DNA of 64,000 bases, taken from positions 248,001 to 312,000 of the forward strand of contig NZ_JAUSSH010000002.1 in assembly GCF_030812255.1 (NCBI RefSeq), read 5' to 3'. The notes under the pieces were generated by a model. That model ran no database searches. It had not been told where the DNA came from and saw nothing but the letters and a program-made list of their open reading frames with translations. Every line of letters begins with the position of its first letter. Within the stretch, counting starts at the first letter, position 1. Below are positions 20,089 to 47,867 of this stretch, one piece after another. Position numbers and translations under genes: made by a program. Source of the stretch: Paeniglutamicibacter psychrophenolicus (GTDB lineage: Bacteria; Actinomycetota; Actinomycetes; Actinomycetales; Micrococcaceae).

Positions 20089-20090
20089 GA

Positions 20091-25093: not shown

Positions 25094-25127
25094 TCTGTCT
25101 ATAGCAAACACCGTGATGCGGCACACT

Positions 25128-25145: not shown

Positions 25146-25228
25146 AAATGCGTGGGGCTCCGAAGCTGGCTGCACAGTGCTCGCACCCGTGTCGCGCTTC
25201 GGTGGAGGCAGGGCCGGCGGCAGATATC

Positions 25229-25257: not shown

Positions 25258-25262
25258 CTGTT

Positions 25263-25553: not shown

Positions 25554-25835
25554 ATGATGAAGAACCCACCACACCCGGGTGAGATCATTCGCGAGGACGT
25601 GATCGCCGGACTTGGCCTCACCGTTGCGGAAGCCGCGCTCAGGTTAGGTGTCGCTCGCGTGACCCTGAGCAGAGTAGTCAACGGTCGTGCCGGCATCAGC
25701 CCGAATCTGGCCGTCAGGTTGGAACTTGCCGGAACCGGTACAGCCCGGGGCTGGCTCGTCATGCAGGTGAACTATGACCTCGCTCGGGAGCTGGAAGGCA
25801 AGACGCACCTTGTGAAGCCGCTTGACGCTGCCTGA
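25554..25835 (+). CDS. higA: HigA-type antitoxin
   Basis: 93-residue helix-turn-helix antitoxin that neutralises HigB and represses the operon. It begins PPHPGEIIREDVIAGLGLTV, the HigA signature, followed by the XRE-type helix LRLGVARVTLSRVVNGRAGI. The start may be ATG 25554 or the adjacent ATG 25557. A strong terminator follows. Confidence 0.9.
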   Translation: MMKNPPHPGEIIREDVIAGLGLTVAEAALRLGVARVTLSRVVNGRAGISPNLAVRLELAGTGTARGWLVMQVNYDLARELEGKTHLVKPLDAA

Positions 25836-25931: not shown

Positions 25932-27101
25932 CTACAGTGCCCGCAAGATAACTGCGCTGCCCTGCCCGCCGCCGCCGCAGATGCCGGTGGCGCCCACGGA
26001 GCCGGCACCGAGCTCGGCCAGCTGGCGGGCCAGGGTGCCGATGATGCGTGCGCCCGAGGCGCCGATCGGGTGGCCCAGGGCAATGGCCCCGCCCTTGGGG
26101 TTCACGATTTCCGGATCGATGCCGAGCTTCGCGGTGGAGCGCACGCCCACGGCGGCGAAGGCCTCGTTGATTTCCACGGCCTTCAGGTCCGCCGGCGCAA
26201 TGCCGGTGCCCTCGAGCGCAGCCAGGATGGCGTTGGCCGGCTGCTCGTGCAGCAGCACGTCCGGACCTGCCACCAACGCGTGGGAGACGATCTCGGCAAT
26301 CGGGGTGATTCCCAGGCGTTCCGCGGCGGCCTTGCTGACCAGCACCAGGGCGGCGGCGCCGTCGGTGATCTGCGAGGCGTTGCCGGCGGTGATGGTGCCG
26401 TCCTTGGAGAAGGCCGGGCGCAGCTTGCCCAGGGATTCGGCGGTGGTGTCGGCGCGGATGCCGTCATCGGCGGAGACCACGGTGTCCCCGCGCCGGGAGG
26501 AGATGGTGAACGGTGCGATTTCCCCGGCGTGGAAGTCGGCGGCGGCTGCTGCCAGCTGGTGCGAGCGGGCGGAGAAGGCGTCCTGCTCGGCGCGCTTGAT
26601 GCCCATGGCGGTGTTGCCGTCCTCGGTGGAGGAGCCCATGGAGCGGGCCTCGAAGGCGTCGGTGAGCCCGTCGAATTCCAGGGTGTCGATCATTTCGATG
26701 GCACCGTACTTGGTTCCTGCGCGGGCGCGCTGTACGTGGGGTGCCAGCGACATGGACTCCTGCCCGATGGCGACCACCACGTCGGCCTCGCCGGCGTCGA
26801 TCATGCGGGTGCCCGCCACGACGGCCTCGGTGCCCGAAAGGCACACCGCGTTCAGCGTCAGGGCCGGGACGTTGAAGCCGATGCCGGCCCCCACGGCGGA
26901 CTGGCGTGCCGGGTTCTGCCCGGCACCGGCCTGCAGCACCTGTCCGGCGAAGACCCGCTGGACGTCCTCGGCGGGGATTCCGGCGCGCTCGAGGGCGGCG
27001 GCGGCCGCGTGGGCCCCCAGTGCCGTGCCGGGGACGGTGGCGAAGGCCCCGTTGAAGCGGGCAAACGGGGTGCGGGCGTACCCGGCGATCAATGCGCTCA
27101 T
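25932..27101 (-). CDS. atoB: Acetyl-CoA C-acetyltransferase (acetoacetyl-CoA thiolase)
   Basis: 389-residue thiolase that splits acetoacetyl-CoA to two acetyl-CoA. The nucleophile is C87 in [10 protein letters not shown]; the catalytic His is in [14 protein letters not shown] and the second Cys in CGGGGQGSA. It overlaps the CoA-transferase B gene (ATGA), so it is the last gene of an acetoacetate operon and distinct from PcaF. It would process acetoacetate formed from leucine or from ketone carboxylation. The symbol is by function and context. Confidence 0.85.
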
Positions 27102-27748
27102 GCTGCTGCTTCTTCCTGAAGGTCTACGGTGAAAGCGGCCCCGGTGGCCTCGGTGAGGGATGCGATGGTGATGCCGGGCGCCATGGCCCGCAGCACCAGG
27201 GCGGAATCAACCACGTCGAACACGGCGCGGTCGGTGATGATTCGATCCACCACGCCGACCCCGGTCAGCGGCAGGTCACAGGTCTCGACGATCTTGGGGG
27301 ACCCGTCCTTGGCGACGTGGTCGGTGATGACGATGACGCGCGGGGTGCCGGCGACCAGGTCCATGGCGCCGCCCATGCCCTTGACGAGCTTGCCGGGGAT
27401 GGTCCAGTTGGCCAGGTCCCCGTTGGCGGCAACCTGCAGGGCACCGAGGATCGCGGTTGCCACGTGCCCGCCGCGGATCATGCCGAAGGAAGTCGCCGAG
27501 TCGAAGTAGCTGCCGCCGGGCAGCAGGGTGACGGTCTGCTTGCCGGCGTTGATCAAATCTGCGTCCTCTTCGCCCTCGTAGGGGAAGGGGCCCATGCCCA
27601 GCAGCCCGTTCTCGGACTGCAGGGTGACGTGCACGCCCTCGGGCAGGTTGTTGGCCACCAGGGTCGGGATCCCGATGCCCAGGTTCACGTATTGGCCGTC
27701 GGTCAGTTCGCTGGCGGCAATTGCTGCCATTTCATCGCGTGTCCACAT
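27098..27748 (-). CDS. scoB: 3-oxoacid (acetoacetate) CoA-transferase subunit B
   Basis: 216-residue B subunit with the catalytic glutamate in [11 protein letters not shown] (near residue 54) and [14 protein letters not shown] near 125. It is of the succinyl-CoA:acetoacetate type. It overlaps the thiolase start by 4 bp and follows subunit A by 5 bp. The pair activates acetoacetate to acetoacetyl-CoA. Confidence 0.85.
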
Positions 27749-27753
27749 GGTTT

Positions 27754-28458
27754 CTATGCCTCCTGGCGGACGCGCACGGTCCGCTGTTCGATGTCCTTGG
27801 TTCCGTCGGTCTGCACGACGTGCTGCACGAAGATGCCCGGGGTGTCCACGAGCGACGGGTCCAGGTACTCCTCGTGGATGGTTTCGACCTCGGCAAAGGT
27901 GATGCGGCCTGCGGCGGCAACCAGCGGGTTGAAGTTCCGTGCGGTCATCCGGTAGCGCAGGTTTCCCTCGCGGTCTGCCTCGTGGGCCCGGACCAGGGAG
28001 ATGTCGGCAACGATGCCGCGTTCCAAGATGGCGGTCCGGCCATCGAATTCCATGGTTTCCTTGCCCTCGGCCACCGGGGTGCCCACGCCGGTGGGCGTGT
28101 AGAAGGCGGGGATGCCGGCGCCGCCGGCGCGCAGGCGCTCGGCCAGCGTGCCCTGGGGGACGAACTCGACCTCGAGCTCGTTGTCCAGGAACTGCTGGGC
28201 GAAGAGCTTGTTCTCGCCCACATAGGAGGCCAGGACCTTGGAGACCTGCTTGTTTTCCAGCAGGATTCCCAGACCCTTGCCATCCACGCCCATGTTGTTC
28301 GAGACGATGGTCAGCCCGGTGGCGCCCGAGTCTCGGAGGGCGGTGATCAGGCGGGTGGGGATTCCACTGAGCCCAAAACCGCCCACCGCGATGGTCATGC
28401 CGTCGCGCACGGTTGCGGCCAGCGCCGCAGCGGCGTCGCCGATGACTTTCGTTGCCAT
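27754..28458 (-). CDS. scoA: 3-oxoacid (acetoacetate) CoA-transferase subunit A
   Basis: 234-residue A subunit, start ATG 28458 with AAGGAG directly upstream. The glycine motif is [15 protein letters not shown] near residue 30, with [13 protein letters not shown] and [16 protein letters not shown] later. GFGLSGIP is the form seen in acetoacetate-type enzymes, unlike GFGNAGQP of the PcaI copy. It is the first gene of the operon and divergent from an IclR regulator. Confidence 0.86.
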
Positions 28459-28593: not shown

Positions 28594-28610
28594 TGTCCAT
28601 AATATGAACA
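28594..28610. promoter_or_regulatory. Imperfect palindrome before iclR / scoA
   Basis: 17-bp near-palindrome TGTCCATAATATGAACA (one mismatched pair plus centre) that runs into the IclR start codon. It is a candidate IclR autoregulatory site in the divergent region. Confidence 0.45.
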
Positions 28611-29386
28611 TGAATAATTCGTTTCCCGGCGCCCAGGTGGTGGGCAGGATGGCGGCGGTGCTGCGTGCCGTCAGCACCGCGATGCCCAGGGGCGTCTCCA
28701 CCGCCGAGGTGGCCCGAGGCACCGGCCTGGCGCGGCCCACCGTGCACCGCCTGCTCGCGGCACTGACTGCCGAGGGTTTTTGCGACCACGACAACAGGGA
28801 GGGCTTGTGGCTGCTGGGCCCGGAAATGTATCTGATGGGGACCGTGGCGGCCGAACGTTACGACATCACCGACATCGCCCGTCCCCATGTCGCCGCGTTG
28901 GCCGACGCCACGGGTGAAAGCGCGTTTCTCTCGGTGCGCCGAGGTGATGAGACGGTCTGCCTGCTGCGGGCCGACGGGGCATTCCCGATTCGATCCTTCG
29001 TGCTCTATGAGGGCAAGCGCTTCCCGCTCGGCGTGGCCTCCGCAGGGTTGGCGATCCTGTCGTTCCTGCCCGAAAAGACCATTGAGCGTTACCTGGAAGG
29101 CCGGGACCTGGCGACCGAGCATGGGAACGACCACGCGCCCGAGCCGTTGCGCCGGCGCATCGCCGAGACGCGGGAGCGCGGCTGGGCAGAGAATCCCGCG
29201 CTGATCGTGGAGGGAAGCTGGGGAATGGGCGCGGCGGTCTTTGATGCCGCCGGACAGCCAGCCTGGGCATTGAGCCTGACGGGCGTGGAATCGCGGTTCT
29301 CGCCCGAACGCCGCCCCGAGATGGGTCGGCTGCTGCTGCACCATGCGCACGAGCTGAGCAAGGAGTTGCGCGGCGAGCGATTGTAG
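28604..29386 (+). CDS. IclR-family regulator of the acetoacetate operon
   Basis: 260-residue IclR regulator. The winged helix (VVGRMAAVLRAVSTA, then VARGTGLARPTVHRLLAAL, residues ~9-55) is followed by the effector domain with GESAFLSVRRGDETVCLLR near 105 and ERGWAENPALIVEGSWGMGA near 195. The start is ATG 28604 (MNMNN) or 28610; no Shine-Dalgarno is seen, so it may be leaderless. It is divergent from scoA and likely controls it. Its last third exists a second time at 40814-41044, on the other side of the ketone carboxylase cluster. Confidence 0.85.
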   Translation: MNMNNSFPGAQVVGRMAAVLRAVSTAMPRGVSTAEVARGTGLARPTVHRLLAALTAEGFCDHDNREGLWLLGPEMYLMGTVAAERYDITDIARPHVAALADATGESAFLSVRRGDETVCLLRADGAFPIRSFVLYEGKRFPLGVASAGLAILSFLPEKTIERYLEGRDLATEHGNDHAPEPLRRRIAETRERGWAENPALIVEGSWGMGAAVFDAAGQPAWALSLTGVESRFSPERRPEMGRLLLHHAHELSKELRGERL

Positions 29387-29513: not shown

Positions 29514-32264
29514 CTACTGATCCAGGAGCTGGAATTCGCGGGCGGCATCAACGCATTGCTGGCGGTTGGACACGCCAAAAGTGACGAACAGGCTCTTGAG
29601 GTACCACTTGACCGTGTTGATACCAATGTACAGAGCCTGGGCGATTTCCCGGTTCGAGAGGCCGCGCTCAACCAGGGTCAGGATTTCCTGTTCCCTTTCG
29701 GAAAGCACCGGAGCACCTCGCCTGCCCGGCACCAATGCTGCAGTTGCCGGCTCCGTGAAGTCATGGGCCACCGCAACTGCACCTCCTCCGTCCCGTCCGA
29801 AGATTTTTCCAAGTTCCAGGATTCGTCCAATGAAGGCATGGATCGCTGCTGTGTCGTTGGGAACCCACGCCCCCGATTCCACAGCGCCCGATAGCGAGCG
29901 GAGAAGCTCGCGGCAATTCTGCCGGCGCTCGACCAGCACCATGGGCAGATCCAAGCTGTGGGAAATGACCAGGACGTCCTTGAATTCCGCCTCGGCCTCT
30001 TCTTGATGCCCCGCTGCCTGCAACGCTTCTGCCAGTGCCAACCGGGCATACAGAATCTCGTACTCGTTTCCATGCGCCCGGCGACGAGCCAACAACTTCA
30101 CGGCAAGAGCCGCTGTGGTTGTTGCACTACCGGGCCGGCCGGAGAGCAGCATGGATGCAAGGGTTGCAAGTTCCCGGGAGTCGTCCGCTGCATCGGTGAT
30201 GTGTGGGTAGGCGAACGCGGTTCGGCCGTCGTCTTGCCACGGGAAGCCCAGATTGGCCCTGTCGGCCATGAGCCGGGTGGACAGCCGCGGAAGATCCAAG
30301 GCCGCCGCAATCTTTTCACCAGCCTCGATGGCCTGGGTGGCCCCTTCCACATCACCCCGCAAGACCCGTAGCCTGGCAAGTGTGCTGTAGGTGGCCATCA
30401 TGAAGTCAGCCACACCTGCGTGGGCGCCCAATTCCTGGGCTTCGACAAGCAACTTTTCCGCTTCGCCAAAGGCACCGCGCAAATACAACAGTTCCCCAAG
30501 CAGCCCACCGGCCAACTTGGCGGCATGCGACTGTCGGCCGGCGGAGCGGCGTCCCAACTCCAGGGCATCTTCCAGATGCCGTTGGGCGGTGTCGATATCC
30601 AATTGGGCGAATGCGGCAAGACCGGCAAAACAGTGGCCGTAAACCTCGCTGAAGGGACCCGAGGTTTGGTCGTGAGCCATGCGGGCCGCATCCTGCGTGG
30701 CCAATGCCGCAGCGAAGCTCCCCTTTTGAAGTTCTGCATAGGTGACAATGTTGGCCGCAACCGAAACGATCCAGGGCCGCAATGGTTTTGTCGACTCGAG
30801 TACCAACACCCTCAAATCATTGGTGGGTACTATCTGGTCCGCGTACATTTCAAGGCAACGACGGACTACCAAGGCTTCCAGCCTCAGTTCTTCCTGATCC
30901 TCGGTCCCCAGCCCGCTATCCGGCCCCAACAAGATCTCAGCCTGCTCGAGGGCGATGCGGGATTCTTTCGGGAAGTGCAACAGGCAATTGGCCCAGGCAA
31001 TTGCCATCTGGAGTCTTGGCCTTGGTTCGACGCGGGAGGCCGGCAGCTTCTCCACCATGGCGAGCAGCGTCGACATTTGGGAGTGTTCGACCTTGAGCAT
31101 TGCGTCGGACTCGACGACGTCAACAGCAAACTCGATATCTCCGGCAGTCAGGGCGTGGTCGACGGCCTCGCTGGTGTGGTTGTGCTCGGCATACCAATGT
31201 GCCGCTTTTCGGTGGAGCTCGGCAACCCGATCGGGTTCGTCACGCTCGAGCCTCTTCCTCAGATACTCCACGAAAAGGTGGTGGTAACGATACCAGGATC
31301 CGTCCACGTCCAAGGGCTGCAGAAAAAGGTCGCGGGCCTGGACCTCCTCGAGCATGGCCTGGCCGCGCCGGACGCCGGAAAGGGTGGCGGCAAGATCGGC
31401 GCAGGTCCGTTCCGTGATGGAGGTGCTGAGCAGGAAATCCAGGACCTCGGGTTCCAAGGTGTCCAGGACGTTCTCCGCAAGGTATTCGCCGATGGCCTGG
31501 TGCCTGCCGGAAATCTTCCGCACGATTCCGGAAACGTCGCTTTGCCCGCGTAATGACAGGGAGGTCAATTGCAGTGCGGCGGCCCACCCGTCCGTTGATT
31601 CAAGGAGGGAGTCGATGTCATCGTTGGTGAGCTCAAGTCGGTTGATTCCCACGAGCAGCTGCCAGCTTTCGCGGTGGTCGAAACGCAGTGACGTCGCATC
31701 CACCTCAACCAGCTGGTCGCGGACACGCAGGCGCCCCAAGGGGAGCCCATTGCGGGTGCGACTGGTGATCACAAATCGGAGGCTCTCCGGTCCCTCGTCC
31801 AGCAATCGTTCAAGTACCGCGAGGGTGCGAGGGTCGAGGATGCGGTGCCAGTCGTCGAGTGCAATGACGGTAGAACGCCCACTTTCGGCTAAGGCGTTGA
31901 TGATCGAGGGAACCACATACTTCTCCGCATCATCGGGGCGCTCCTGGAGAAGTTGGAGCAGCTGTGGATCCAGTTCCGCTCCGGCCTTGAGCAGGGACTC
32001 GATCAAATGCGACATGAACCAAATAGTGTTGTTGTCGTCCTTGTCCAAGGAAAACCAGGCAACGGCAAAGTCGGCGTGGGCGAGCTCGGCCACCCACTGG
32101 GCGGCAAGCGTTGACTTCCCGTACCCGGCAGGGCCATGCAGGAGAGCCAGCCGCTTGTTGCCACCTGCAGCAAGAGAAGCGGTTAGGCGCTTGCGCTCCA
32201 CCCAGCTCATCACCGGGGTTGGCGGCTGGAATTTCGTAGCCGCAGTTGGCGGGCCCAGAGGCAT
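29514..32264 (-). CDS. LuxR-family large ATP-binding (LAL/MalT-like) regulator
   Basis: 916-residue signal-transduction ATPase and DNA-binding activator. The N-terminal NTPase has Walker A GPAGYGKST (residues 44-52) and a Walker B-like VIALDDWH near 120. A long helical-repeat sensor region follows (~350-830). The C-terminal LuxR helix-turn-helix is LSEREQEILTLVERGLSNRE to VKWYLKSLFVTFGVSNR (residues ~850-905). The start ATG 32264 has GAGGAG nine bases upstream. It lies downstream of the ketone carboxylase genes on the same strand and is the likely activator of that operon; the GGGTGG repeats in front of the operon resemble MalT-box arrays. Confidence 0.88.
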   Translation of the reverse strand: MPLGPPTAATKFQPPTPVMSWVERKRLTASLAAGGNKRLALLHGPAGYGKSTLAAQWVAELAHADFAVAWFSLDKDDNNTIWFMSHLIESLLKAGAELDPQLLQLLQERPDDAEKYVVPSIINALAESGRSTVIALDDWHRILDPRTLAVLERLLDEGPESLRFVITSRTRNGLPLGRLRVRDQLVEVDATSLRFDHRESWQLLVGINRLELTNDDIDSLLESTDGWAAALQLTSLSLRGQSDVSGIVRKISGRHQAIGEYLAENVLDTLEPEVLDFLLSTSITERTCADLAATLSGVRRGQAMLEEVQARDLFLQPLDVDGSWYRYHHLFVEYLRKRLERDEPDRVAELHRKAAHWYAEHNHTSEAVDHALTAGDIEFAVDVVESDAMLKVEHSQMSTLLAMVEKLPASRVEPRPRLQMAIAWANCLLHFPKESRIALEQAEILLGPDSGLGTEDQEELRLEALVVRRCLEMYADQIVPTNDLRVLVLESTKPLRPWIVSVAANIVTYAELQKGSFAAALATQDAARMAHDQTSGPFSEVYGHCFAGLAAFAQLDIDTAQRHLEDALELGRRSAGRQSHAAKLAGGLLGELLYLRGAFGEAEKLLVEAQELGAHAGVADFMMATYSTLARLRVLRGDVEGATQAIEAGEKIAAALDLPRLSTRLMADRANLGFPWQDDGRTAFAYPHITDAADDSRELATLASMLLSGRPGSATTTAALAVKLLARRRAHGNEYEILYARLALAEALQAAGHQEEAEAEFKDVLVISHSLDLPMVLVERRQNCRELLRSLSGAVESGAWVPNDTAAIHAFIGRILELGKIFGRDGGGAVAVAHDFTEPATAALVPGRRGAPVLSEREQEILTLVERGLSNREIAQALYIGINTVKWYLKSLFVTFGVSNRQQCVDAAREFQLLDQ

Positions 32265-32497: not shown

Positions 32498-33301
32498 TTA
32501 CTTGAAACCCGCCATGAGGGTGATGACATCTTCCGGCACCGCCGTGGCAGGCAGTTGGGAAAAATAGAATCCAGTGGCGGGAAGCGGCGAGGAGACCGTG
32601 CTCCAGAATCCGTCGCCCAACACCTGGCCATCGGTCTCCGGCTCCCTGAACGCGACGGAATCCTCCGACCGGATCCCCAAGGTCCAACGATAGTTTTCGG
32701 CCACATTGATGATGGGGGTGTAGACCTCGAGTCCCACCGCGGGAAGCTGCGAGACTCCCACAGGCGTCCGGTCGTCGAGCAAGACCCCGGCAATCGGAAG
32801 TGCCGAGAAATTCCGCAACCAATCGGCGACGTACATCGAGGCGTTCTCCGCATCGTCGGCATCCAGGTCCGCGGCGTCGTCCTTCCCGGAGAAAGCATGT
32901 GTGGTGGCCAACCAGGCCATGGGCGACGGGACATGCAACACCACGGCCTCCCGTTGTGTCTGCGAAAACGTCTTGGCGATGTCCATGACGATCCCAAGGG
33001 TTTGTGCATCAGCCAACATGGTCCGCAGCGCAAAGCCCGTCCGGCTTCTGGCCGACATGTCGTCTTGCAGGGATTGGCTGGTTGCTGTTCGGTGCCCATA
33101 GAACCGGTCGAGGTGAAGCAAAGCTGCATCCGGCTTGAGCAGCCCCTGCGCCTGCCCCATGAAGTTGGCGTAGGCCATGGGATCCTCCCACGGGATCGGA
33201 CGGTTTTGCAGTATCACCGCCTGGGAGTAATCGAGGTGGTCAAGAATCACTGCATGCTTCCGGCCGGATTGCGGCTCGGCGATGACATTTGCCAGATTCA
33301 C
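32498..33301 (-). CDS. Unrecognised protein, fifth gene of the ketone carboxylase operon
   Basis: 267 residues (about 29 kDa) from a GTG start at 33301, with AAAGGAG upstream. I do not recognise a domain. It looks like a soluble mixed alpha/beta protein without signal peptide or membrane segment, rich in acidic residues around DDAADLDADDAENAS, with segments PIPWEDPMAYANFMGQAQ and AVVLHVPSPMAWLATTH. Its position matches ApcE, the ~34-kDa fifth subunit of acetophenone carboxylase from Aromatoleum, which is needed for activity. That match is by position and size only; I could not test sequence similarity. Confidence 0.6.
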   Translation of the reverse strand: MNLANVIAEPQSGRKHAVILDHLDYSQAVILQNRPIPWEDPMAYANFMGQAQGLLKPDAALLHLDRFYGHRTATSQSLQDDMSARSRTGFALRTMLADAQTLGIVMDIAKTFSQTQREAVVLHVPSPMAWLATTHAFSGKDDAADLDADDAENASMYVADWLRNFSALPIAGVLLDDRTPVGVSQLPAVGLEVYTPIINVAENYRWTLGIRSEDSVAFREPETDGQVLGDGFWSTVSSPLPATGFYFSQLPATAVPEDVITLMAGFK

Positions 33302-33419
33302 GGTATTTGCTCCTTTCCTTGCTGGGGCCTTGCTGGATGTTTGGGTGACGGGAAATGGTGCCTTCCGCCGCGGCCGTGGCCGGGGGCGGAAAGGCACCAC
33401 TTCACCGATGAAGCGAGGA

Positions 33420-35735
33420 TCAGGACTTGTGGACCACGGTTTCCCCGTACTTCGCCTCAAGCTCGCGAATCCTCTTGTTCTGGGCTTCGATCTTCAGCAC
33501 GCGGCGGTCCGGGATCATGACCAGTGGGATCTCGCTGAGCTTCCCCTTTACCCGCTGTGGTTCCTGCCCGCCCCAGTGGGTGGCGAAGACTTCTTCATCG
33601 TTGTCCTGGCCCCACGAGCCGTAGTAGAGCAGATCCGCCGGTGGTTCCTCCGTGACAAACTCCTTGATGAACTCCCTGAACGGCGTGCCGCGGGCGATGC
33701 GGCGCTTGCGGGCCTCGACCCGCGCTGCCTCCGTGGCTTGCACATCGACAACGAAGGTCTCCGGGTTCCAGACCACTGCGTACAGGTCCGTGGCAACCTG
33801 GGCGGAAATCCTGTCGAGCTGCAGGTCGGCCGCCACCAGCTCAGGGTCGCGTTCCAGGACGTCGCCGTAGCCTCCGCCAGAGCCCTGGGAGATCATGTAC
33901 AGCTCTCCCTCCTTGGCTACATCGAATTGCAGACCCATGTGGGCGCTCTGGTAGGAGCCGCCCTCGTAGGGCTGCTCGTTCATGATGCGTTCGATCGACA
34001 AGTCGAACTGCGAGGGATCCTTGCGGATGATGTCGTAGATGTTGATTCCCTTGACGATCGACAGCGGGTACGCCGGGCAGCCGTAGCCACCAAACATTCC
34101 GGTGATCGAGGAGAACTTGGATCCGGAGGTCACGGTCATGAATCCCCAGTTGGGAGTGCCGCGGGAGGCAACGATCATCTCGTATCCCATGCCGCCGCGG
34201 TACTTTCCGAAGCCCTGGTTGTCGCGCACCAGCCGCTTGGACACCAGCTGCAGGAATGGAACTTCTTCCTCCATGACCTCCTGTTCGGCGATGTCGGCCA
34301 TGGCACAGAACAAGGGGGCCACCGCGTCTTCGCCGTCACGGAAGGCCTTTGCCCCGCCGCCCATCCCGTTCAGGTCGGCACACAGGTTGCCCACCTGCTC
34401 ACCATGCTGGGTGGTGCCGCCCCACAGGAAATCATTGATCTGGTTGAACCAAGGGGCAATCACATTCGAGTACTTCTTGGGGGCGGAGAACTGCAACTTG
34501 GCATATGCGGTCTGCAGCGCCGAGAAGCCCCGGAACGAGCCCTGCAAGGACTGTCCCACAGGTGCGTCGTAGCCGGCATCTGCCCACGAATGCTCCTCGG
34601 AGATCACCTCGATGGGGGACAGCGCGCCGGTGCTTCGCGGCAGGTCGGGCCACCAATAGGAGAGGATCGCCTGGGTCATGAAGGCCTTGGTGGATCCCAG
34701 CGGGGAGTTGATGGCCCGATTGAGGATCTCCGGGCCGGTGCCCGTCAAATCGACGATCAGCCGGTCTCCCTTGACCGTGATCTTGCAGGCGAACTTGATA
34801 AGGATGTTCTCCTTCAACGTGGAATCCATGAACTGGTTGAAGGTGACCGTTCCGTCGGGCAGTTCCTTGATGCGGCGGCGCACCTCGGCCTCGACATTTT
34901 CCACGGTGACTCGCAGCGCCGCCACGAATGCCTCCTGGCCCACCTCCTCGATGATCCGGTCCACGGACTCGATGACCCGGCGGACGGCGCCCATCTTTAC
35001 CTTGATGTCCGCAAGCATCAGTTTCGGGTCACGGGTGGAATGCTGGAGGAAGGTCAACAGGTCGCGGCGGAGATGACCGCCCTCCACGATCTTGATGGGG
35101 GAAGCACGCAATCCGTCATCGAAGGGGGTCTCCGAACCCGAGGGCATGCCGCCGGGTTCGCAGGCGCCGTTCTCGCCCTCGTGGATGGTGGCCCCTACCC
35201 AGGCAATGATCTGGCCATCGCGCATCACGGGCACGAGCATTGACTGGTCGGTGTTGTGCACCATGCCGTAACGCGAGTCGTTGTGGAAGAATCCGTCACC
35301 CGGATTGATGCCCACGGTCGGCTCGTCCTTCCAGTTCTTCATGATGTAGCGGATCGGGTGGTGCAGGACCGCGGAGAAGGCGATCACGCCGCGGTTGGAC
35401 AGGTAGGTCACATCCCCTTCCGCTGTGTACACGGCCACCGAAAGGTCGGCCCACTTGGCGCCGGGAGCAGCGCCCATGCTCTCGCACATTTCGAAGGCCT
35501 CGTCCAGGGAACCGGCCAGGCGCTTGCGGATCCGGTCCGTTTCAAGCGGGCTGACGCCCTTGGCGATGCATTCGTCTTCGTAGGCGGTGCGTTCGTGGAT
35601 TTGGTGGCTGCGCATGATCTCCGGGTCGGGGCCCAGGAACAGCGTGGTCTCGTCCATGAATTTGTCGACCCACTGCTGTTCCTGTGTGCTCAGGATCCCT
35701 TGCGCGTTTCCGGTGTCATTGGTTGTCAGCGTCAT
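33420..35735 (-). CDS. Ketone carboxylase beta subunit, HyuB-like (acetone/acetophenone carboxylase)
   Basis: 771-residue hydantoinase B/oxoprolinase family protein. In acetone and acetophenone carboxylases this subunit carries the carboxylation site, where activated carboxyphosphate reacts with the enol form of the ketone. Typical segments are GDGFFHNDSRYGMVHNTDQS near residue 150 and GMGYEMIVASRGTPNWGFMT near 520. It is much longer than common HyuB proteins (~570 residues) and has the size of AcxB/Apc large subunits. The start ATG 35735 has GGGAG upstream, five bases after the stop of the HyuA-like gene, so the two are co-translated. Confidence 0.85.
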   Translation of the reverse strand: MTLTTNDTGNAQGILSTQEQQWVDKFMDETTLFLGPDPEIMRSHQIHERTAYEDECIAKGVSPLETDRIRKRLAGSLDEAFEMCESMGAAPGAKWADLSVAVYTAEGDVTYLSNRGVIAFSAVLHHPIRYIMKNWKDEPTVGINPGDGFFHNDSRYGMVHNTDQSMLVPVMRDGQIIAWVGATIHEGENGACEPGGMPSGSETPFDDGLRASPIKIVEGGHLRRDLLTFLQHSTRDPKLMLADIKVKMGAVRRVIESVDRIIEEVGQEAFVAALRVTVENVEAEVRRRIKELPDGTVTFNQFMDSTLKENILIKFACKITVKGDRLIVDLTGTGPEILNRAINSPLGSTKAFMTQAILSYWWPDLPRSTGALSPIEVISEEHSWADAGYDAPVGQSLQGSFRGFSALQTAYAKLQFSAPKKYSNVIAPWFNQINDFLWGGTTQHGEQVGNLCADLNGMGGGAKAFRDGEDAVAPLFCAMADIAEQEVMEEEVPFLQLVSKRLVRDNQGFGKYRGGMGYEMIVASRGTPNWGFMTVTSGSKFSSITGMFGGYGCPAYPLSIVKGINIYDIIRKDPSQFDLSIERIMNEQPYEGGSYQSAHMGLQFDVAKEGELYMISQGSGGGYGDVLERDPELVAADLQLDRISAQVATDLYAVVWNPETFVVDVQATEAARVEARKRRIARGTPFREFIKEFVTEEPPADLLYYGSWGQDNDEEVFATHWGGQEPQRVKGKLSEIPLVMIPDRRVLKIEAQNKRIRELEAKYGETVVHKS

Positions 35736-35740
35736 TGCTC

Positions 35741-37918
35741 TCAAACTCCCTGGAATTGAAGATTGGTGGTCACGTCGGTTGTATTGGTGAGGTCATTGAG
35801 CAGCCAGACCGCGCCCTGCGGGGTTGGCTCAAGGCGCCACCCGGGTTCCACGAGGTAGGTGGTGCTCTCCGTGGTGACCAGTGCCGGGCCGTTGATCACG
35901 TAGTGGCTCTTGAGCGAGCTGGTGTCGTAGATCGGCGTATTTACCGGATCCTCCTCATCGGTGAAGTGGATGGTTCGTTCGGCGACGGCCACCGGTTCGA
36001 TGCGACGGGTGCCGTTGGATTCGAGTGATTCGAACTGGACTACATCCCCTTCGACGTAGGAGGCGACCCGGACCGTTTGCACGCGTACCCCGGCCTCGGG
36101 TGCTTGGGTGCCTTCGCCATAGCGGTCGCCGAAGATGTCGGCGAATGTCTTGATCAGGTGCAGCACGTCCCCGGTGCCGTTGACGCGGTTGATGTCGAAG
36201 GCCACTGCAGTGGTCACCAGCTGGTTGCCGTAGCGCATGTCCATCTCCAGGCGGTACTTGACCGAGTCACGGTCATACCCCTGGCGAACCAAGTCTTCGG
36301 CGCCCTTCTTCTCGAGCTCCTCGATGTAGCCGTTGATTGCGTCATACTCGGTGTAAAGACTGCGTTCCAGGGCGTCGTAGAGCACGATGTAGGCACTGCG
36401 TTCGTGGATGTGCAGCGGCTTCATGTTCCCCGCGCCCAGGGCGGAGAACACTGAGGCAAAGGGTGGGAAGAGGATCTTGCTGATGCCGGCACGGGACGCG
36501 ATTCCGCAGGCATGCAACGGGCCGTTGCCGCCGTAGGCCAGCATGGTGTAGTCCTCGACCAAGCCGCCGCGGGTGCGCAGTTCCTTCTCGATGCCGATGG
36601 CCATTTCCTCGTCGACCGTGCGCTTGATGATCTTGGCGACCTGGATTGCTTCAAGATCCAGCTCGTCGGAGAAGGCTTCCTCGATCGCATAGGCTGCTCG
36701 CTTCTTGTTCAGCGGGATGTAGCCGTTGGCGTAGTTCTCCGGGTCGAGATATCCCAGCACCAGGTCGGCGTCGGTCACGGTGGGCCGCAGGCCTCCGCGG
36801 TCGTAGCAGGCAGGTCCCGGGTCGGAACCAGCGGATTCGGGACCGATCTTGATGGCCCCGTGGATGCGGTCATAGGAAGCGATGGAACCGCCTCCGGCAC
36901 CCAGGGTGTTCAGGTGGATCATGGGAGCCGAGACCATCCAGCGGCCAATGGTCGGCTGGAAGTCGTAGTGCTTGATGCCGCCTTCGGGAACCAGTCCGAT
37001 GTCGAAGGAGGTCCCGCCCATGTCCATGGAGACCACGTTGCCCAGCCCCGTGGTTTCCGAGAGGTGCTGCGCACCTCCGACGCCGGCGATGGGACCCGAG
37101 TGGATGGTCTGCAGCGCATCGGTGGAGTTCGGCTGGGCCATGCCGCCGGAGTTGTGGATCACCAGCATGGGCTTGTCGTAGCCCGATTCGCGCAGGTTGC
37201 TGGAGAGCTGGTTCAACGCGTGGAACATGGTTTCGTGAAGGAACGCGTCCACCACCGTCGACATCGCTCGGATGTATTCTCCCTTGCGCCCGGAGACCTG
37301 GCTGCTGAGCAACACCGGGATCGATCCCAGCTCATGGGCCGGGTATTCCTCGAGGATGATCTCCAGGATTCTTTCCTCGTGCTCGGAGTTCTCGGTGGCG
37401 TTGGTCAATGCCACGACGATGGCTTCGGCCCCGTTGTCGACCAGCTCGCGGACCTGCTGGCGTACATCTTCGTACATCAAGGGGACCAGCACGGTGCCGA
37501 TGGAATCGACGCGTTCCTTGACGGAACGCACCAGGTGGCGAGGGACAAGTGGTTCAGGGCGTTGTGCGTCGGCCATGTCGCCCTGCTTCAGGGGGTCGAG
37601 GCCTTCACCGTAGCCGCGTCCGCGGGAAAGGTGGATGGTGTCCTCGAAGCCGTGGGTGACCAAGACCCCGACACGGGGTCCAACACCTTCGATCAAGGCG
37701 TTGGTTCCCAACGTGGTCGCGTAGCGTACGGAGTCGACTTCCTTCAGGGCCTGCTGGCGGCTGACTCCGGCTCGAGAGCATGCCAGGTCCAAGGCTTCAT
37801 TGAAGCCCAGGGCAAGGTTGTGGTGGGTGGTCAGGGCCTTTGACTCGACATAGATGTCGTCCCAGACGAAAAAGCAGTCACTGAACGTGCCACCGATGTC
37901 AACAGAAATGCGTTTCAT
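35741..37918 (-). CDS. Ketone carboxylase alpha subunit, HyuA-like
   Basis: 725-residue hydantoinase A/oxoprolinase family ATPase. It shows the ASKHA-type phosphate motifs ISVDIGGTFSDCF at the N-terminus, SMDMGGTSFDIG near residue 290 and LGAGGGSIASYD near 330. SDPGPACYDRGG and AYGGNGPLHACGIASRAG are also conserved. In acetone and acetophenone carboxylase this type of subunit phosphorylates the ketone enol or bicarbonate with ATP. The start ATG 37918 has AAAGGAG upstream; the longer open frame above overlaps the gamma gene and has no similarity. Neighbours on both sides are other subunits of the same enzyme. Confidence 0.86.
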   Translation of the reverse strand: MKRISVDIGGTFSDCFFVWDDIYVESKALTTHHNLALGFNEALDLACSRAGVSRQQALKEVDSVRYATTLGTNALIEGVGPRVGVLVTHGFEDTIHLSRGRGYGEGLDPLKQGDMADAQRPEPLVPRHLVRSVKERVDSIGTVLVPLMYEDVRQQVRELVDNGAEAIVVALTNATENSEHEERILEIILEEYPAHELGSIPVLLSSQVSGRKGEYIRAMSTVVDAFLHETMFHALNQLSSNLRESGYDKPMLVIHNSGGMAQPNSTDALQTIHSGPIAGVGGAQHLSETTGLGNVVSMDMGGTSFDIGLVPEGGIKHYDFQPTIGRWMVSAPMIHLNTLGAGGGSIASYDRIHGAIKIGPESAGSDPGPACYDRGGLRPTVTDADLVLGYLDPENYANGYIPLNKKRAAYAIEEAFSDELDLEAIQVAKIIKRTVDEEMAIGIEKELRTRGGLVEDYTMLAYGGNGPLHACGIASRAGISKILFPPFASVFSALGAGNMKPLHIHERSAYIVLYDALERSLYTEYDAINGYIEELEKKGAEDLVRQGYDRDSVKYRLEMDMRYGNQLVTTAVAFDINRVNGTGDVLHLIKTFADIFGDRYGEGTQAPEAGVRVQTVRVASYVEGDVVQFESLESNGTRRIEPVAVAERTIHFTDEEDPVNTPIYDTSSLKSHYVINGPALVTTESTTYLVEPGWRLEPTPQGAVWLLNDLTNTTDVTTNLQFQGV

Positions 37919-37947
37919 GTCCTGTTTGCTCCTTTTGGAATTCTGGC

Positions 37948-38385
37948 TTAGCGATGCGAATGGTTGTGGTGGCCCTCGTGCGTCGAGCGCATGTCGGTGA
38001 CGGCGTTTTCGCCCGGACCGTAGTCGACAACGAGTTCGGGGTCTTCCCCGCGTTCCTCCCACTGCGTACGCAGTGCATCGATGTCCCAGATCATGTCGAT
38101 TGTCGGCGGGTGGCCAGGCGGAAGATACTCGGTCTCCATCTGCGTGCCGCACTTTGGGCAGCAGTATTCGAGGATGCGGCAGTAGGCGGGATCCGGGGAA
38201 AACGTGAACTCGTACTTCTCCGGGTCGATGATCGGGGGGTGGATCTCCCGGGGATCGCGGTCGAAAACAAGGGTGCCTTCCTTGTAGCTGCCGCGGGCGT
38301 CACCGAGGTTGTGGCCGCACGGGCGGCACACCCACTGCTCGGTGGAAAGATCGATGTAGAGGTATTCCGTCATGGGGACGCGCAT
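37948..38385 (-). CDS. Acetone carboxylase gamma-type small zinc subunit
   Basis: 145-residue small subunit (about 16 kDa). It carries two cysteine pairs, CRPCGHNLGDARGSYKEG near residue 18 and LEYCCPKCGTQMETEYLPPG near 83, as expected for the zinc-binding gamma subunit of acetone carboxylase (AcxC) and ApcB. This is the most specific marker that the flanking HyuA/HyuB genes encode a ketone carboxylase and not a hydantoinase or oxoprolinase. An alternative start is ATG 38373. The C-terminal end is His-rich (HEGHHNHSHR). Confidence 0.88.
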   Translation of the reverse strand: MRVPMTEYLYIDLSTEQWVCRPCGHNLGDARGSYKEGTLVFDRDPREIHPPIIDPEKYEFTFSPDPAYCRILEYCCPKCGTQMETEYLPPGHPPTIDMIWDIDALRTQWEERGEDPELVVDYGPGENAVTDMRSTHEGHHNHSHR

Positions 38386-38447
38386 GGTCGATGCCTGGCT
38401 TTCTGTCTTGGTGGTTCAAAGGCGAAGGGAAGGGAATGATCAGTGGC

Positions 38448-40370
38448 CTACTGCGAGTCGGAAAGCAGCAGGTCGCCTGCGGCGGAAATGTCGAGGACCC
38501 AACCGGCAGGAACCCGGGCCGTGAAGAACGGTCCCTCCACGATGGCCGGCCCCGCAGCTGTCGCTCCGGGAGCCTGCTCCTCGAGCTGGTACACCGGGAT
38601 CTGCTCAACCGAATCGGCCGAGGACCGGACCGAGCGGGTTCCCTCAGCCACCGCCTCGCTCTTTGACTGTTTGTGGTTGCTCGGCAGCGTCGGGTGTGGG
38701 AGGGCAAACGTGCATTTCAGTGAGAGCAATGCCTTCTGGTCGTCCGATATCTGCGGGGTTGAGGTTTCGTCGAATGGCGAATCCTTGGCCATGGAACCAT
38801 CTGCGTTTTCAATGACAAGCGTCCAGTCAAGGCCGCATTCAGTGATTGTGTGTCCCTCCTGGAACATGTCACGGGCCGCGCGTCCCTCCATCTCCAGCCT
38901 TGCCTCATCGATCTGTGCGGCGGATGCCCCGGTGATGTCGGTTTCATAGGTTTGTGAGATATCCGAGAAACTGATCCCGAAGGCTGAGAACACCGCAGCG
39001 AGGCGCGGGATCAGCACGTGGCGGACTCCCGCGATCCGGGCCGCGAGGCATGCGCTCATCGGTCCGCCGCCACCGAACGCGGCAACTGTCGTCGTGTCCG
39101 CGTCCTGGATCGCGCCGGAGAATGCCGAAGCCATCTGCTCGGCGTAGGTCCGCTCCATGCGAATCAGGGCCTCGTCGAGGCTGATGCCCAAGGGCTCGGC
39201 AACGGTCGAGGTGATGACCGCCCTGGCGCGCCCGGCATCCAGCTTCATTTCCCCATTGAGGTAGGTGGCGGGATCGAGCACACCCAGCAGCAGGTTGACG
39301 TCGGTGATGGTTGCCTGGCGGCCGCCGAACCCGAAACAAGCCGGCCCGGGTGCCGCGCCCACGCTGTCGGGGCCAACGGTGATCTCGCCGTTCTGCACGG
39401 CGATGACAGAGCTTCCGCCGATGCCCTTGGAGTGGACGTTGCTCATCTCGTAGGAAATGGGCACACCCTTCACGCTTCCGCGGCGGTCCGTGGAGATTTC
39501 CGAGTTCAGTACCGATCCGACGTCCGTGGTGGTCCCACCCACGTCGATCATCAGCACGTGCTTGAGCCCGTAGGCATCTGCCAGGGCCCGGGTTCCTTCA
39601 AGTCCGCCGCGCGGGCCCGAGGAGTAGGTCTTCAGTGCCACCGACTTGGCCACGCGGGAGGAGGCCCCGTCGTTGCGGTAGATCAGCAGTGGGTTCTTGA
39701 CCTTGTAGGAGCGCAGCCGGTGCTCGGCGCTGTAGAGGAAACGTTCGACGGTGGGGTGGAGGAAGGAATTGATGATTCCAGACCAGATCCGGCGGCTGCG
39801 CAAGGTGTCGGAGGTGAATTCCCAGGAGAAGAGCACCGGGACCGATCCGAGCAGATGCCGGGGGAAGTTCTTCAACATCGCACGCTTGTAGAGCTTTTCG
39901 CGGTCAGGGTCCACTGCGGCAACGACCAGGCGTTCAGCGCCGGCCGTGGTGAGGCGGTTGATCTCGGTAACCAACAACCGGGCGCGGGATTCCTCGTCGC
40001 CGTCCACGGGAAGCAAGCTCACCCGTTCCCCGATCAGGTCGTCAAAGAGCCTGATTTCTTCGGGACCTTTGCGCAACTCAGCCATGAGATTGGGGTCGTC
40101 GGTGATCAGGCCGATGCGTGGGCCCTTGCCCTGGACCAAGGCGTTGGTGCCCTGGGTCGATGAATAGCGGATGTGGCGCGTGGAGTGGAGCAAGGACGGA
40201 AGGTCTTCCTGCCCGTAGATGGTGGTCGAGGCCTTGGCCAGGCCATCGAAGAGACACTGGGACAGGTCGGCCGGGGTTGTCAGCGTCTTCGTGAAGGTGA
40301 AATCGGTGCCGCTGCCGACGACGATGTCGGTCAGGGTGCCACCGTTGTCAATGTTGATCAAACGTTCCAT
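38448..40370 (-). CDS. Second HyuA-like subunit (alpha') of the ketone carboxylase
   Basis: 640-residue (about 69 kDa) hydantoinase A-type protein, first gene of the operon; start ATG 40370 with GGGAG upstream. ATPase motifs are altered compared with the other copy: RLINIDNGGTLTDIV at the N-terminus (DNGGT in place of DIGGT), LMIDVGGTTTDVG near 265, KGIGGSSVIA. AAPGPACFGFGGRQATITD and AAFGGGGPMSACLAARIAG are retained. Acetone carboxylase has only one HyuA-type subunit, whereas acetophenone carboxylase has two different ones, so this gene is the main argument for an Apc-like enzyme. Confidence 0.85.
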   Translation of the reverse strand: MERLINIDNGGTLTDIVVGSGTDFTFTKTLTTPADLSQCLFDGLAKASTTIYGQEDLPSLLHSTRHIRYSSTQGTNALVQGKGPRIGLITDDPNLMAELRKGPEEIRLFDDLIGERVSLLPVDGDEESRARLLVTEINRLTTAGAERLVVAAVDPDREKLYKRAMLKNFPRHLLGSVPVLFSWEFTSDTLRSRRIWSGIINSFLHPTVERFLYSAEHRLRSYKVKNPLLIYRNDGASSRVAKSVALKTYSSGPRGGLEGTRALADAYGLKHVLMIDVGGTTTDVGSVLNSEISTDRRGSVKGVPISYEMSNVHSKGIGGSSVIAVQNGEITVGPDSVGAAPGPACFGFGGRQATITDVNLLLGVLDPATYLNGEMKLDAGRARAVITSTVAEPLGISLDEALIRMERTYAEQMASAFSGAIQDADTTTVAAFGGGGPMSACLAARIAGVRHVLIPRLAAVFSAFGISFSDISQTYETDITGASAAQIDEARLEMEGRAARDMFQEGHTITECGLDWTLVIENADGSMAKDSPFDETSTPQISDDQKALLSLKCTFALPHPTLPSNHKQSKSEAVAEGTRSVRSSADSVEQIPVYQLEEQAPGATAAGPAIVEGPFFTARVPAGWVLDISAAGDLLLSDSQ

Positions 40371-40635: not shown

Positions 40636-41064
40636 ATGACGATTACTGTTCGCTATGCCGGCCAGCCGCCCGGAGATGATTATCGCCTTTCGCTGCTGGG
40701 TGAGGCAGCTGCGCTGACTTCTGAAAGGTTTTTTGCGCCCAGGACAGCCGGGAGGGTTTGTGGCTATCGGGTCCCGAAATGTACCTCAAGGGAAGGACCG
40801 TGGTCCCGACCAATTGCGCCGGCGAATCGCCGAAACTCGGGAGCGCGGCTGGGCAGAGAATCCCGCGCTGATCGTGGAGGGAAGCTGGGGAATGGGCGCG
40901 GCGGTCTTCGACGCCGCCGGCCAGCCGGCGTGGGCGCTGAGCCTGACGGGCGTGGAATCGCGATTCTCGCCCGAGCGCCGCCCCGAGCTGGGACGGCTGC
41001 TTCTTCACCACGCCCACGAGCTGAGCAAGGAGTTGCGCGGCGAAAAGTCGCAACATGTTCGGTG
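40636..41064 (+). pseudogene. Deleted second copy of the iclR gene
   Basis: Remnant of an IclR gene close to the one at 28604. A short N-terminal piece is frameshifted (one frame gives DSREGLWLSGPEMYLKG near 40743). An internal deletion then joins it to the C-terminal third at 40814-41044, which matches 29147-29377 at 212 of 231 positions. Most differences are third-codon changes, so the copy diverged as a working gene before it was broken. The open frame at 40733-41064 keeps RRIAETRERGWAENPALIV. Left boundary is approximate. Confidence 0.8.
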
Positions 41065-46573: not shown

Positions 46574-47867
46574 CTACTTGAGCAGCACCGTGATGAGCCG
46601 CAGGGAAGACGCGACGATGGCAATCAGCCCGATTGCGGCGAACAAGTTCTGCCACCACTTGTTGCGCAGGTCCCCCATGATGGAGGTCTTGTTGGCCATG
46701 ATGACAATCAGGACACCGAGGAACGGGGCTATCAAAACGGTCAGGGACTGGGCGATGACGATCAGGCCGACGGGTGAAGCCTGGAACGAAAGGGTGATGG
46801 CCAATCCGAAGGCCAGGATGATTCCCGTGACGATTCTTGCGGTGGGTGACCCTGCCTTTGCCCCACGTCCAAGGGCATCCGAGAACATGGTGCCCCCGGC
46901 CGTGGCATTGGCGATCATCGAGGAGAACGCTGCCCCGGAAAGTCCGAGTGCGAAGACCAGCGATCCAACGGGTCCGGCCAGGGGTTCGAATACCGCAGCC
47001 AGCGCGTTGATGGTTCCGGCTTCGGCGCCCGTCTTGCCGAGCACGGCCGCTGCCACCATGATGACCAGCGCCGTCATGATGCCCGGGGCGACGATGCCGG
47101 GAACAGTGTCGACGAGGGTGATGTCGCGGTAATCGGCACGGGTGCGACGGTGCATCCTTGATGCCGTAGGAGGTGTAGAAGGCCGCGTTGATGGAAAAGT
47201 TGGTTCCGACCAATGCCACCACGAGGATCTCGCTTCCGGCCGGAAGCTGTGGAACCATCCCCTCCATGGCCCGGTACCAGTCGGGTTGGGCAACCAGGAT
47301 GCTCGCGATGAAGGTGATGCCCATGAGCACGACGATCACCAGCAGCGCTTTCTCCACGATTCCGTAGACATTGCGGAATGCCAGCACGATGCCGACCGCG
47401 GCGGTGCACACGATGGGCCACAGGACGGGGGAGCCCCCGAAGACCATGAAAACGCCAAGCCCGGAACCAACTGCGTTGCCGACGGAGAACATGAGGATGA
47501 TGCCAAAGACGCCGATGCCTGCCAAGACGCCGACCGATGGGCCCAGATGATCCTTGATGGAGGTGATCAGAGACGTGGGGGTGGCGATGCCCAGTAGGAC
47601 GCTCATGTCGGTGAAGAAGATCATTAGGGTCGTGGAGACCGCGATGACCCAGAGCAGGGTGTAGCCGTGGCCGCTGCCCGCCTGCACCGCAGTCGTGAGG
47701 TTGCCGGGGCCGAACTGCCATGCTCCGACAACGAAGGCAGGACCCATGAGGGCGAGGTACCCGAGGAAGCCCCGGCGCTTGCCCGGAGCAGGGCTACTGA
47801 CTTCGTGCGTAACCGTCCGTCCGTGGTGGGCATGCGGGGAGGCGACGGTCTTGTGCGGCTCGCTCAT
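46574..47867 (-). pseudogene. Nramp-like transporter with a frameshift
   Basis: The N-terminal ~235 residues read MSEPHKTVAS.. to NAAFYTSYGIKD in one frame. The rest continues in another frame from RTRADYRDITLVDTVPG (about 47150) to RLITVLLK at 46574. The joined protein of about 430 residues has eleven hydrophobic segments and the Nramp fold. TM1 has GPGN (residues 53-56) where metal transporters have DPGN, and TM6 lacks MPH (TNFSINAAF), so it is a non-canonical member. The frame changes around GATGCACCGTCGC; one lost or gained base would restore it, so either a recent pseudogene or a sequencing error. The first frame could instead yield a truncated protein with an unrelated tail. Confidence 0.8.

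Follow-up and report, generated by a model that had tools for sequence, protein, structure and literature searches.

A five-subunit carboxylase of acetophenone carboxylase architecture, predicted to act on acetone, in Paeniglutamicibacter psychrophenolicus and other actinobacteria

Which ketone is carboxylated when an aerobic actinobacterium carries genes resembling those of acetophenone carboxylase (Apc)? We examined this question at a five-gene cluster (32498-40370) in a 64,000-nucleotide stretch of the Paeniglutamicibacter psychrophenolicus genome (contig NZ_JAUSSH010000002.1; hereafter the window). An initial annotation had assigned the cluster to the Apc type. We found that its coordinates and gene sizes were right and that gene order, matches in the Protein Data Bank (PDB) and trees all agreed with it, so that the cluster almost certainly has Apc architecture, with the subunits alpha, alpha', beta, gamma and epsilon (Table 1). 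That architecture is already published and the novelty is confined to the predicted substrate, which neighbouring genes and an altered substrate pocket suggest is, with good probability, acetone or another short methyl ketone.

The five genes are transcribed from the minus strand, from 40370 to 32498, in the order alpha', gamma, alpha, beta and epsilon, with successive intergenic gaps of 62, 29, 5 and 118 bp. An alternative ATG for alpha' lies upstream at 40406 and would give a protein of 652 amino acids (aa); the start at 40370 has GGGAG before it. Pfam models were found for Hydantoinase_A in both HyuA subunits (E 5e-57 and 2e-75), for Acetone_carb_G (PF08882) in gamma (E 4e-37) and for Hydantoinase_B in beta (E 3e-85). 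The published order apcABCDE is alpha', gamma, alpha, beta, epsilon (PMC5214803), and the window order is identical in all five positions; the match that the initial annotation had seen at the first, second and fifth genes was correct but too narrow. When the four core subunits were compared with the PDB using phmmer, the best match was in each case a chain of Apc structure 5L9W: alpha' matched the chain named 'alpha' (E 4e-78), gamma that named 'beta' (E 3e-33), alpha that named 'gamma' (E 1e-147, 37% identity) and beta that named 'delta' (E 1e-81). Chains of acetone carboxylase (Acx) scored below 5L9W for all four.

The residues that define the core subunits were also conserved. The ATP motifs DxGGT, DxGGT and GxxPGP were present in both kinases, alpha and alpha', and were intact in alpha' as DNGGT, DVGGT and GAAPGP. 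The R/KERiDsxG fingerprint of Apc-alpha was found as KERVDSIG in window alpha and did not occur in alpha'; a strict version of this pattern matched alpha in 9 of the 21 loci of clade I, described below. Gamma cysteines 20, 23, 76 and 79 aligned with the four zinc cysteines of Apc (C22, C25, C75 and C78), and beta residues D97, H160, D163 and H185 aligned with the Apc-beta metal site D65/H123/D126/H148. The last three of these beta residues also aligned with the Acx manganese ligands H150, D153 and H175 (PMC5543143). In a wider search, PF08882 matches above the cut-off were seen inside frames of more than 600 aa, mostly weak and some strong; a fusion of gamma-like domains with other subunits might account for them, or the frames may simply be long.

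The fifth protein gave no match in Pfam, in a phmmer search of the PDB or in a PDB profile search, and it was therefore compared at the level of predicted structure. AlphaFold2 modelling of the window protein with eight orthologues reached a predicted local distance difference test score (pLDDT) of 74.9, which is moderate (other four models 52-61), and modelling of the Streptomyces orthologue reached 81.5 (other models 56-74). When 350,542 PDB chains were searched with Foldseek, ApcE (9FOU) was the top match of both the window model (E 1.5e-4, template modelling (TM) score 0.51) and the Streptomyces model (E 6.6e-6, TM 0.54), which bore out the resemblance to ApcE anticipated by the initial annotation. 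Further ApcE chains and uroporphyrinogen decarboxylases followed for both models. The identity of 9FOU to either protein was 12%, the resemblance is one of fold and the TM-scores are modest; judged from these models, the fifth gene most likely encodes epsilon. A Pfam URO-D protein was also seen between alpha' and gamma on a Haloterrigena plasmid (L057, 9686-10654). It matched ApcE 9FOU by sequence (E 7.5e-5), suggesting that epsilon may sit at other operon positions, and hhalign found no link between it and window epsilon (probability 0.4%).

We wanted to know where the two HyuA subunits belong. A FastTree phylogeny was built from 97 HyuA-type rows, including 10 Acx rows and 9 hydantoinase-type rows, the latter being HyuA genes from relatives so labelled without further check of identity. 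Window alpha grouped with Apc alphas (0.975), beside but apart from a group of the Acx and hydantoinase-type rows (1.0), and window alpha' grouped with the alpha' of Aromatoleum and others. A quick IQ-TREE of 47 alpha rows, with support from the Shimodaira-Hasegawa-like approximate likelihood ratio test (SH-aLRT), separated Apc-type alphas from Acx (SH-aLRT 99); this tree was built without the alpha' rows and without three HyuA copies (alpha' of L021 and an extra HyuA gene each from L051 and L066), and it retained 4 of the 10 Acx rows and 3 of the 9 hydantoinase-type rows. Hence there is strong evidence that alpha belongs to the Apc lineage, apart from Acx and hydantoinases. The alpha' subunit falls in the Apc alpha' lineage, likewise apart from both, with modest deep support: support for the deeper alpha' grouping did not exceed about 0.8, and L057 and L059-L062 had their alpha' rows outside it, both of which count against this placement. 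The phylogenetic comparison with hydantoinases and oxoprolinases proposed by the initial annotation thus placed both copies with Apc.

Within the Apc lineage, IQ-TREE recovered a clade of 21 loci including the window (clade I, SH-aLRT 100). It comprised three Paeniglutamicibacter-type loci, seven Rhodococcus loci (L018-L021 and L023-L025), Streptomyces GC420 (L022), eight further actinobacterial loci (L041, L044, L045, L048, L049, L050, L053 and L054) and, outside the actinobacteria, Neorhizobium petrolearium (L026) and Cupriavidus necator N-1 (L028). In close genomes, alpha' was 97% identical in Arthrobacter sp. AQ5-05 and 95% in Paeniglutamicibacter gangotriensis. ApcC of Aromatoleum, 37% identical to window alpha, lay in a different subclade. 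The sister of clade I was clade II (L040, L042 and L043), whose alpha was 53-54% identical in the two compared; the alpha' subunits of clades I and II grouped together with support of 1.0 in FastTree. In one genome (G143) the two clades occur together, clade I as a cluster accompanied by CoA-transferase genes (L041) and clade II as one accompanied by thiolase and acyl-CoA ligase-type genes (L040). On a plasmid of Rhodococcus sp. 008 (L025, 15486-18128), alpha' lacks its first 110 residues, a transposase gene is adjacent and gamma is matched as two separate fragments; strain BH4 was listed with the same alpha' match start, and both are probably decaying copies.

The findings above were extended by asking how close the cluster is to acetophenone carboxylase itself. 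All four core subunits missed the NCBIfam equivalog cut-offs (NF042960, NF042974, NF042975 and NF042976, with scores against cut-offs of 338.6/1250, 128.6/250, 537.5/1500 and 301.1/1500), and the cluster is no close Apc orthologue. The acetophenone pocket of Aromatoleum alpha has been described as L81, F281, N282, P285, I333, Q344 and T345 (PMC5214803). In our 37%-identity alignment the corresponding residues of window alpha are T, I, H, P, I, H and L, so that five of the seven differ. TIHPIHL was found in 20 of the 21 clade I loci and TVHPIHL in Cupriavidus (L028), five of the seven positions being changed in all 21, and clade II had TIHPIYL (3/3). At these positions the residues of Xanthobacter Acx are L, I, V, P, M, A and M, the I at 281 being shared with the 20 TIHPIHL loci. 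In alpha', E248 and K281 of Aromatoleum were replaced by S and D in all 20 clade I members that are complete there, L025 having a gap at the first position. The initial annotation had noticed DNGGT in the first ATP motif of alpha' and taken it to suggest divided labour between the HyuA copies. The motif is indeed present, but we do not accept it as a sign of divided labour: DNGGT occurred in all 20 clade I members with an intact alpha' N-terminus, Aromatoleum alpha' has DTGGT, and since the motif is DxGGT we read the difference, from the sequence, as a lineage marker. A division of labour between the kinases may instead be proposed from the two-kinase architecture, by analogy with Apc.

To gain insight into the substrate, we searched the neighbourhoods of 37 loci for coenzyme A (CoA)-transferase genes using tblastn, and matches were found in clade I loci only. 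CoA-transferase A and B genes followed epsilon on the same strand in L022, L041, L045 and L048, and were convergent to it in L026. In Rhodococcus RHA1 plasmid pRHL2 (L024, 23874-24455), only a broken CoA-transferase A gene stood directly after epsilon, which suggests that its partner was lost or is supplied from elsewhere. In Cupriavidus N-1 (L028), epsilon was directly followed by an acetoacetate-CoA ligase gene (TIGR01217, 802.7 bits; cut-off 520.9). Because these orthologous clusters adjoin CoA-transferase or acetoacetate-CoA ligase genes, they are better evidence on the substrate than the operon in the window, and they support the suggestion of the initial annotation that an aliphatic methyl ketone may be the substrate, a reading that we regard as probable. 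Outside clade I, matches to acyl-CoA ligase and thiolase references were frequent. When the general ligases of five loci outside the clade (L027, L042, L043, L062 and L064) and of two inside it (L022 and L050) were scanned with NCBIfam, the best matches were general acyl-CoA ligase models, and no acetoacetate-CoA ligase model was among the best 25 matches. Alcohol dehydrogenases beside L022 and near the window cluster resembled isopropanol dehydrogenases only at the level of the broad family, which is weak evidence.

Altogether, a CoA-transferase or acetoacetate-CoA ligase gene accompanied 10 of the 21 clade I loci and none of the 18 other Apc-type loci (Fisher p 6e-4), or 7/14 versus 0/16 (p 0.002) with near-copies merged and the broken gene of L024 counted absent, in tests that ignore relatedness and unequal stretch lengths. 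The three Paeniglutamicibacter-type loci are counted among the 10; for L016 and L017, the CoA-transferase was seen on the longer stretches L029 and L030. The neglect of relatedness is one of several points that weigh against acetone as the substrate. The other 11 clade I loci had no such gene in the fetched stretch, which for L049 reaches only slightly beyond beta. Beside the CoA-transferase of L022 stands a gene for a general acyl-CoA ligase, and another lies upstream in L050. Among Acx-type loci, a CoA-transferase was next door in none of ten and an AacS-like gene in two (L047 and L068), so the neighbour test is only loosely calibrated. CoA-transferases accept a broad range of 3-oxoacids, and butanone is thus a possible substrate. 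Within the genus, the CoA-transferase operon of the window is also found where the carboxylase is missing, and an IclR gene of its own accompanies it. Clade II combines nearly the same altered pocket with an acyl-CoA ligase-type gene in three of three loci, indicating that the substrate is not fixed by the pocket alone, and the pocket comparison itself passes through an alignment of low identity. In addition, the authors of the Apc structure call their placement of acetophenone in alpha tentative (PMC5214803), and acetone use via acetol has been described for Rhodococcus (PMC4033308).

Rhodococcus ruber offers a physiological comparison. Strain Chol-4 has a 'putative anaerobic' acetophenone carboxylase cluster (apc1-4 with fisR), and grew on isopropanol and not on ethylbenzene (PMC6498646). 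The type-strain locus of R. ruber (L018) belongs to clade I and has a regulator of the fisR kind; the Chol-4 cluster, named acetophenone-specific and anaerobic by similarity, is thus very probably of the same clade as the window. Its growth pattern fits a route from isopropanol through acetone to acetoacetate and is not proof of it; the Chol-4 text is silent on growth with acetone or acetophenone (PMC6498646), which also weakens the case.

Taken together, we consider it likely that the cluster encodes a five-subunit, two-kinase carboxylase for acetone, perhaps also butanone, rather than for acetophenone. By analogy with Apc, alpha would spend one ATP to form the phosphoenol of the ketone, and alpha' a second to activate bicarbonate as carboxyphosphate. 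The two intermediates would be joined by beta at or near its His-Asp-His site, gamma would be a structural zinc holder, and epsilon, with its predicted URO-D type fold, would be required for activity in the presumed oligomer. The 3-oxoacid CoA-transferase encoded nearby would then activate the product, acetoacetate, and thiolase would cleave it to two acetyl-CoA.

Other explanations were weighed against the same data. A true acetophenone (aryl methyl ketone) carboxylase, forming benzoylacetate, would have this five-subunit architecture and gene order and would be expected to match Apc chains best; moreover, the only Apc-branch enzyme characterised by 2017 acts on acetophenone (PMC5214803), and the R. 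ruber cluster carries that name in print (PMC6498646). We nevertheless regard it as quite improbable, given equivalog scores far under the cut-offs in all four core subunits, the different subclade and changed pocket of alpha, the pairing of relatives with CoA-transferase or acetoacetate-CoA ligase genes, and a window in which no AMP-ligase-type gene was found between 18001 and 47500. Another ketone, such as butanone, a longer 2-alkanone or a terpene- or steroid-derived methyl ketone, could likewise give a 3-oxoacid handled by the broadly specific CoA-transferase, and the ligase-type (3/3) and alcohol dehydrogenase (2/3) genes of clade II suggest that the family spans substrates. The acetoacetate-CoA ligase of Cupriavidus and a relative of the window's LAL regulator beside a canonical AcxABC point instead to acetone, which leaves this alternative unlikely, if somewhat less so than acetophenone.

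An ATP-dependent lactamase or a hydrolase of the hydantoinase/oxoprolinase type, with no carboxylase activity, would explain the HyuA and HyuB Pfam families and the match of the CapA model to alpha (412 bits). Such hydrolases have alpha and beta only (PMC5214803), whereas gamma, alpha' and epsilon are present here and both HyuA subunits lie outside the hydantoinase-type rows of the trees; this possibility was rejected as extremely unlikely. Canonical Acx was also rejected, since both HyuA subunits fall with Apc in the trees and the five subunits stand in a different order.

We then set the predicted acetone enzyme beside characterised systems. Apc of Aromatoleum aromaticum (ApcABCDE; core 5L9W, ApcE 9FOU) shares its five subunits, gene order, alpha and alpha' ATP motifs, gamma cysteines, beta metal ligands and epsilon fold. 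The two differ in sequence (alpha 37% and alpha' 30% identical, in separate subclades), in the pocket (LFNPIQT in Aromatoleum, TIHPIHL in the window) and in alpha' positions E248/K281 (S/D in the window). Aromatoleum Apc also has two-component systems (PMC4729919) and a Bal ligase, whereas the window has a LAL regulator and a CoA-transferase nearby. AcxABC of Xanthobacter and others (5SVB, 5M45) shares the HyuA, HyuB and gamma parts and the His-Asp-His metal site, and its reaction, acetone plus bicarbonate to acetoacetate, is the one proposed for the window cluster. Unlike the latter, it has three subunits and one nucleotide site, with ATP converted to AMP in Xanthobacter (PMC5543143), and its genes stand in the order alpha-beta-gamma (PMC5214803). 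Window alpha is 28.5% identical to Xanthobacter Acx alpha and belongs to a different lineage. Relative to Apc gamma, Acx gamma carries about 50 additional N-terminal aa, an extension that window gamma lacks (145 aa versus 168 aa in Xanthobacter), its residue 15 aligning with Xanthobacter residue 67. The acetovanillone carboxylase HpeCBA of Rhodococcus rhodochrous GD02 resembles the window enzyme in carboxylating an activated methyl ketone in an aerobic actinobacterium, and differs in being biotin-dependent and in having a separate kinase, HpeHI (PMC9618137). In searches of the open-licence literature we found no Apc-type enzyme that had been reported to act on acetone, and no description of an acetone-using clade of Apc architecture.

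Acetone carboxylase activity has been reported from actinobacteria, and to our knowledge no gene has been assigned to it. In 1999, Clark and Ensign reportedly found nucleotide-dependent acetone carboxylase activity in Rhodococcus rhodochrous B276, with subunits said to be about 85, 74 and 16 kDa; again, we know of no gene assigned to it. The window subunits beta, alpha, alpha' and gamma are predicted at 85.3, 79.0, 68.3 and 16.8 kDa. We hypothesize that clade I is linked to the B276 activity; a three-subunit Acx is equally possible, as such enzymes occur in actinobacteria (L055, and a three-gene acetone carboxylase set in Frankia Dg2; PMC5059922). More broadly, we lean moderately towards the view that acetone carboxylation comes in two designs belonging to a single superfamily, the three-subunit Acx with a single ATP site and a so far unrecognised five-subunit clade of Apc architecture with separate ketone and bicarbonate kinases (2 ATP to 2 ADP). 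The latter clade would extend through Paeniglutamicibacter, Rhodococcus, Streptomyces and other actinobacteria and reach Neorhizobium and Cupriavidus, one genus of the window's order would have either design, depending on the species, beside related LAL regulators, and the clade may underlie the 1999 Rhodococcus activity. At least some Apc-branch copies elsewhere inherit the name acetophenone carboxylase, and an acetoacetate-making clade, if real, would correct this naming. It would further point to genes by which actinobacteria may use acetone and isopropanol, and would allow the question why aliphatic and aromatic ketones require one or two ATP sites, raised in PMC5214803, to be approached as a natural experiment.

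Table 1. Coordinates of the carboxylase cluster and of associated features in the window
Feature	Coordinates	Strand	Basis or remark
alpha' subunit, ApcA-like HyuA kinase, 640 aa, 68.3 kDa	38448..40370	minus	Pfam Hydantoinase_A
gamma subunit, ApcB/AcxC-like zinc protein, 145 aa, 16.8 kDa	37948..38385	minus	PF08882
alpha subunit, ApcC-like HyuA kinase, 725 aa, 79.0 kDa	35741..37918	minus	Pfam Hydantoinase_A
beta subunit, ApcD-like HyuB, 771 aa, 85.3 kDa	33420..35735	minus	Pfam Hydantoinase_B
probable epsilon subunit, ApcE-like, URO-D type fold, 267 aa, 29.1 kDa, GTG start	32498..33301	minus	Foldseek of AlphaFold2 model
LAL/MalT-type LuxR regulator, downstream of epsilon	29514..32264	minus	GerE and AAA_16 over cut-off, TPR_MalT below
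IclR regulator, divergent to CoA-transferase operon, start approximate	28600..29386	plus	Pfam IclR_C/HTH_IclR
3-oxoacid CoA-transferase subunit A	27754..28458	minus	TIGR02429, 238 bits, over cut-off
3-oxoacid CoA-transferase subunit B	27098..27748	minus	TIGR02428, 319 bits, over cut-off
acetyl-CoA acetyltransferase (thiolase)	25932..27101	minus	TIGR01930, 364 bits, over cut-off
direct repeat copy 1, IclR 3' end	29120..29376		257 bp; the two copies share 89.5% identity
direct repeat copy 2, broken IclR remnant	40787..41043		flanks cassette opposite copy 1

The CoA-transferase/thiolase operon of the window (25932-28458), to which the initial annotation had appealed for the substrate, proved to be real but a weak argument, as it is common in the genus without a carboxylase; the LAL regulator and the IclR gene stand between it and the carboxylase cluster. 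A CoA-transferase A gene was found at 85% identity or above in 13 of 15 genomes of the genus and the carboxylase in 3 of the 15. In all nine regions from genomes without the cassette (the five genes plus LAL), the IclR gene stood with the CoA-transferase gene and the 19.5-kb stretch was free of carboxylase genes; each of the 11 regions fetched from the genus had the IclR gene, and the two carriers among them resembled the window. Local adjacency alone therefore proves little, and the operon can still serve acetoacetate, although its presence is not proof. Broken IclR remnants were found at the same far-side place in all three cassette-carrying genomes. The cassette is most simply explained as an insertion at the IclR gene, next to an operon that was already there, the direct repeat resembling an insertion scar; loss from other species of the genus is a possible alternative. 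Synonymous divergence (dS) among the three carriers was 0.10-0.34 for the five cluster genes versus 0.20-0.72 for CoA-transferase, thiolase and carboxyltransferase genes, somewhat lower but not sharply so, and a recent transfer of the cassette among them is likewise possible.

We propose LAL as the regulator of the cluster. It was 52% and 46% identical to the regulators beside two clade I clusters (L053 and L054, respectively) and 40% identical (residues 4-679) to that beside L055, compared with 30% for its nearest paralogue in its own genome. L055 is a canonical AcxABC from the same order as the window organism, its alpha being 78% identical to that of Xanthobacter, and L054 and L055 are from two species of one genus. 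The occurrence of related LAL regulators beside both carboxylase designs would fit a common effector such as acetone, and is suggestive only. A GAF/Fis-type regulator gene was found near the cluster in 13 other clade I loci (L018-L024, L026, L041, L044, L045, L048 and L049).

Rfam, tRNA, tandem-repeat and promoter scans led nowhere. Elsewhere in the window, TetR, carboxyltransferase, biotin carboxylase, MaoC hydratase and CitE-like lyase genes were seen at 19264-25538, a set that we take to resemble the actinobacterial leucine-degradation cluster of the Rv2498c-Rv2506 type, another source of acetoacetate. A second set of thiolase, CoA-transferase and IclR genes (4745-8272), with 3-oxoadipyl-CoA thiolase as best match, probably belongs to the beta-ketoadipate pathway. 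Upstream of the cluster, short Nramp and YhcG_C pieces and two transposase-type genes (rve and IS110) lie at 46574-47155, 49684-50028, 50170-51651 and 59064-60020, marking a mobile or decaying region. Between the thiolase and TetR genes, on the plus strand (25554-25835), is a small gene that looks like a HigA-type antitoxin, which was also found in 5 of the 11 regions fetched from relatives.

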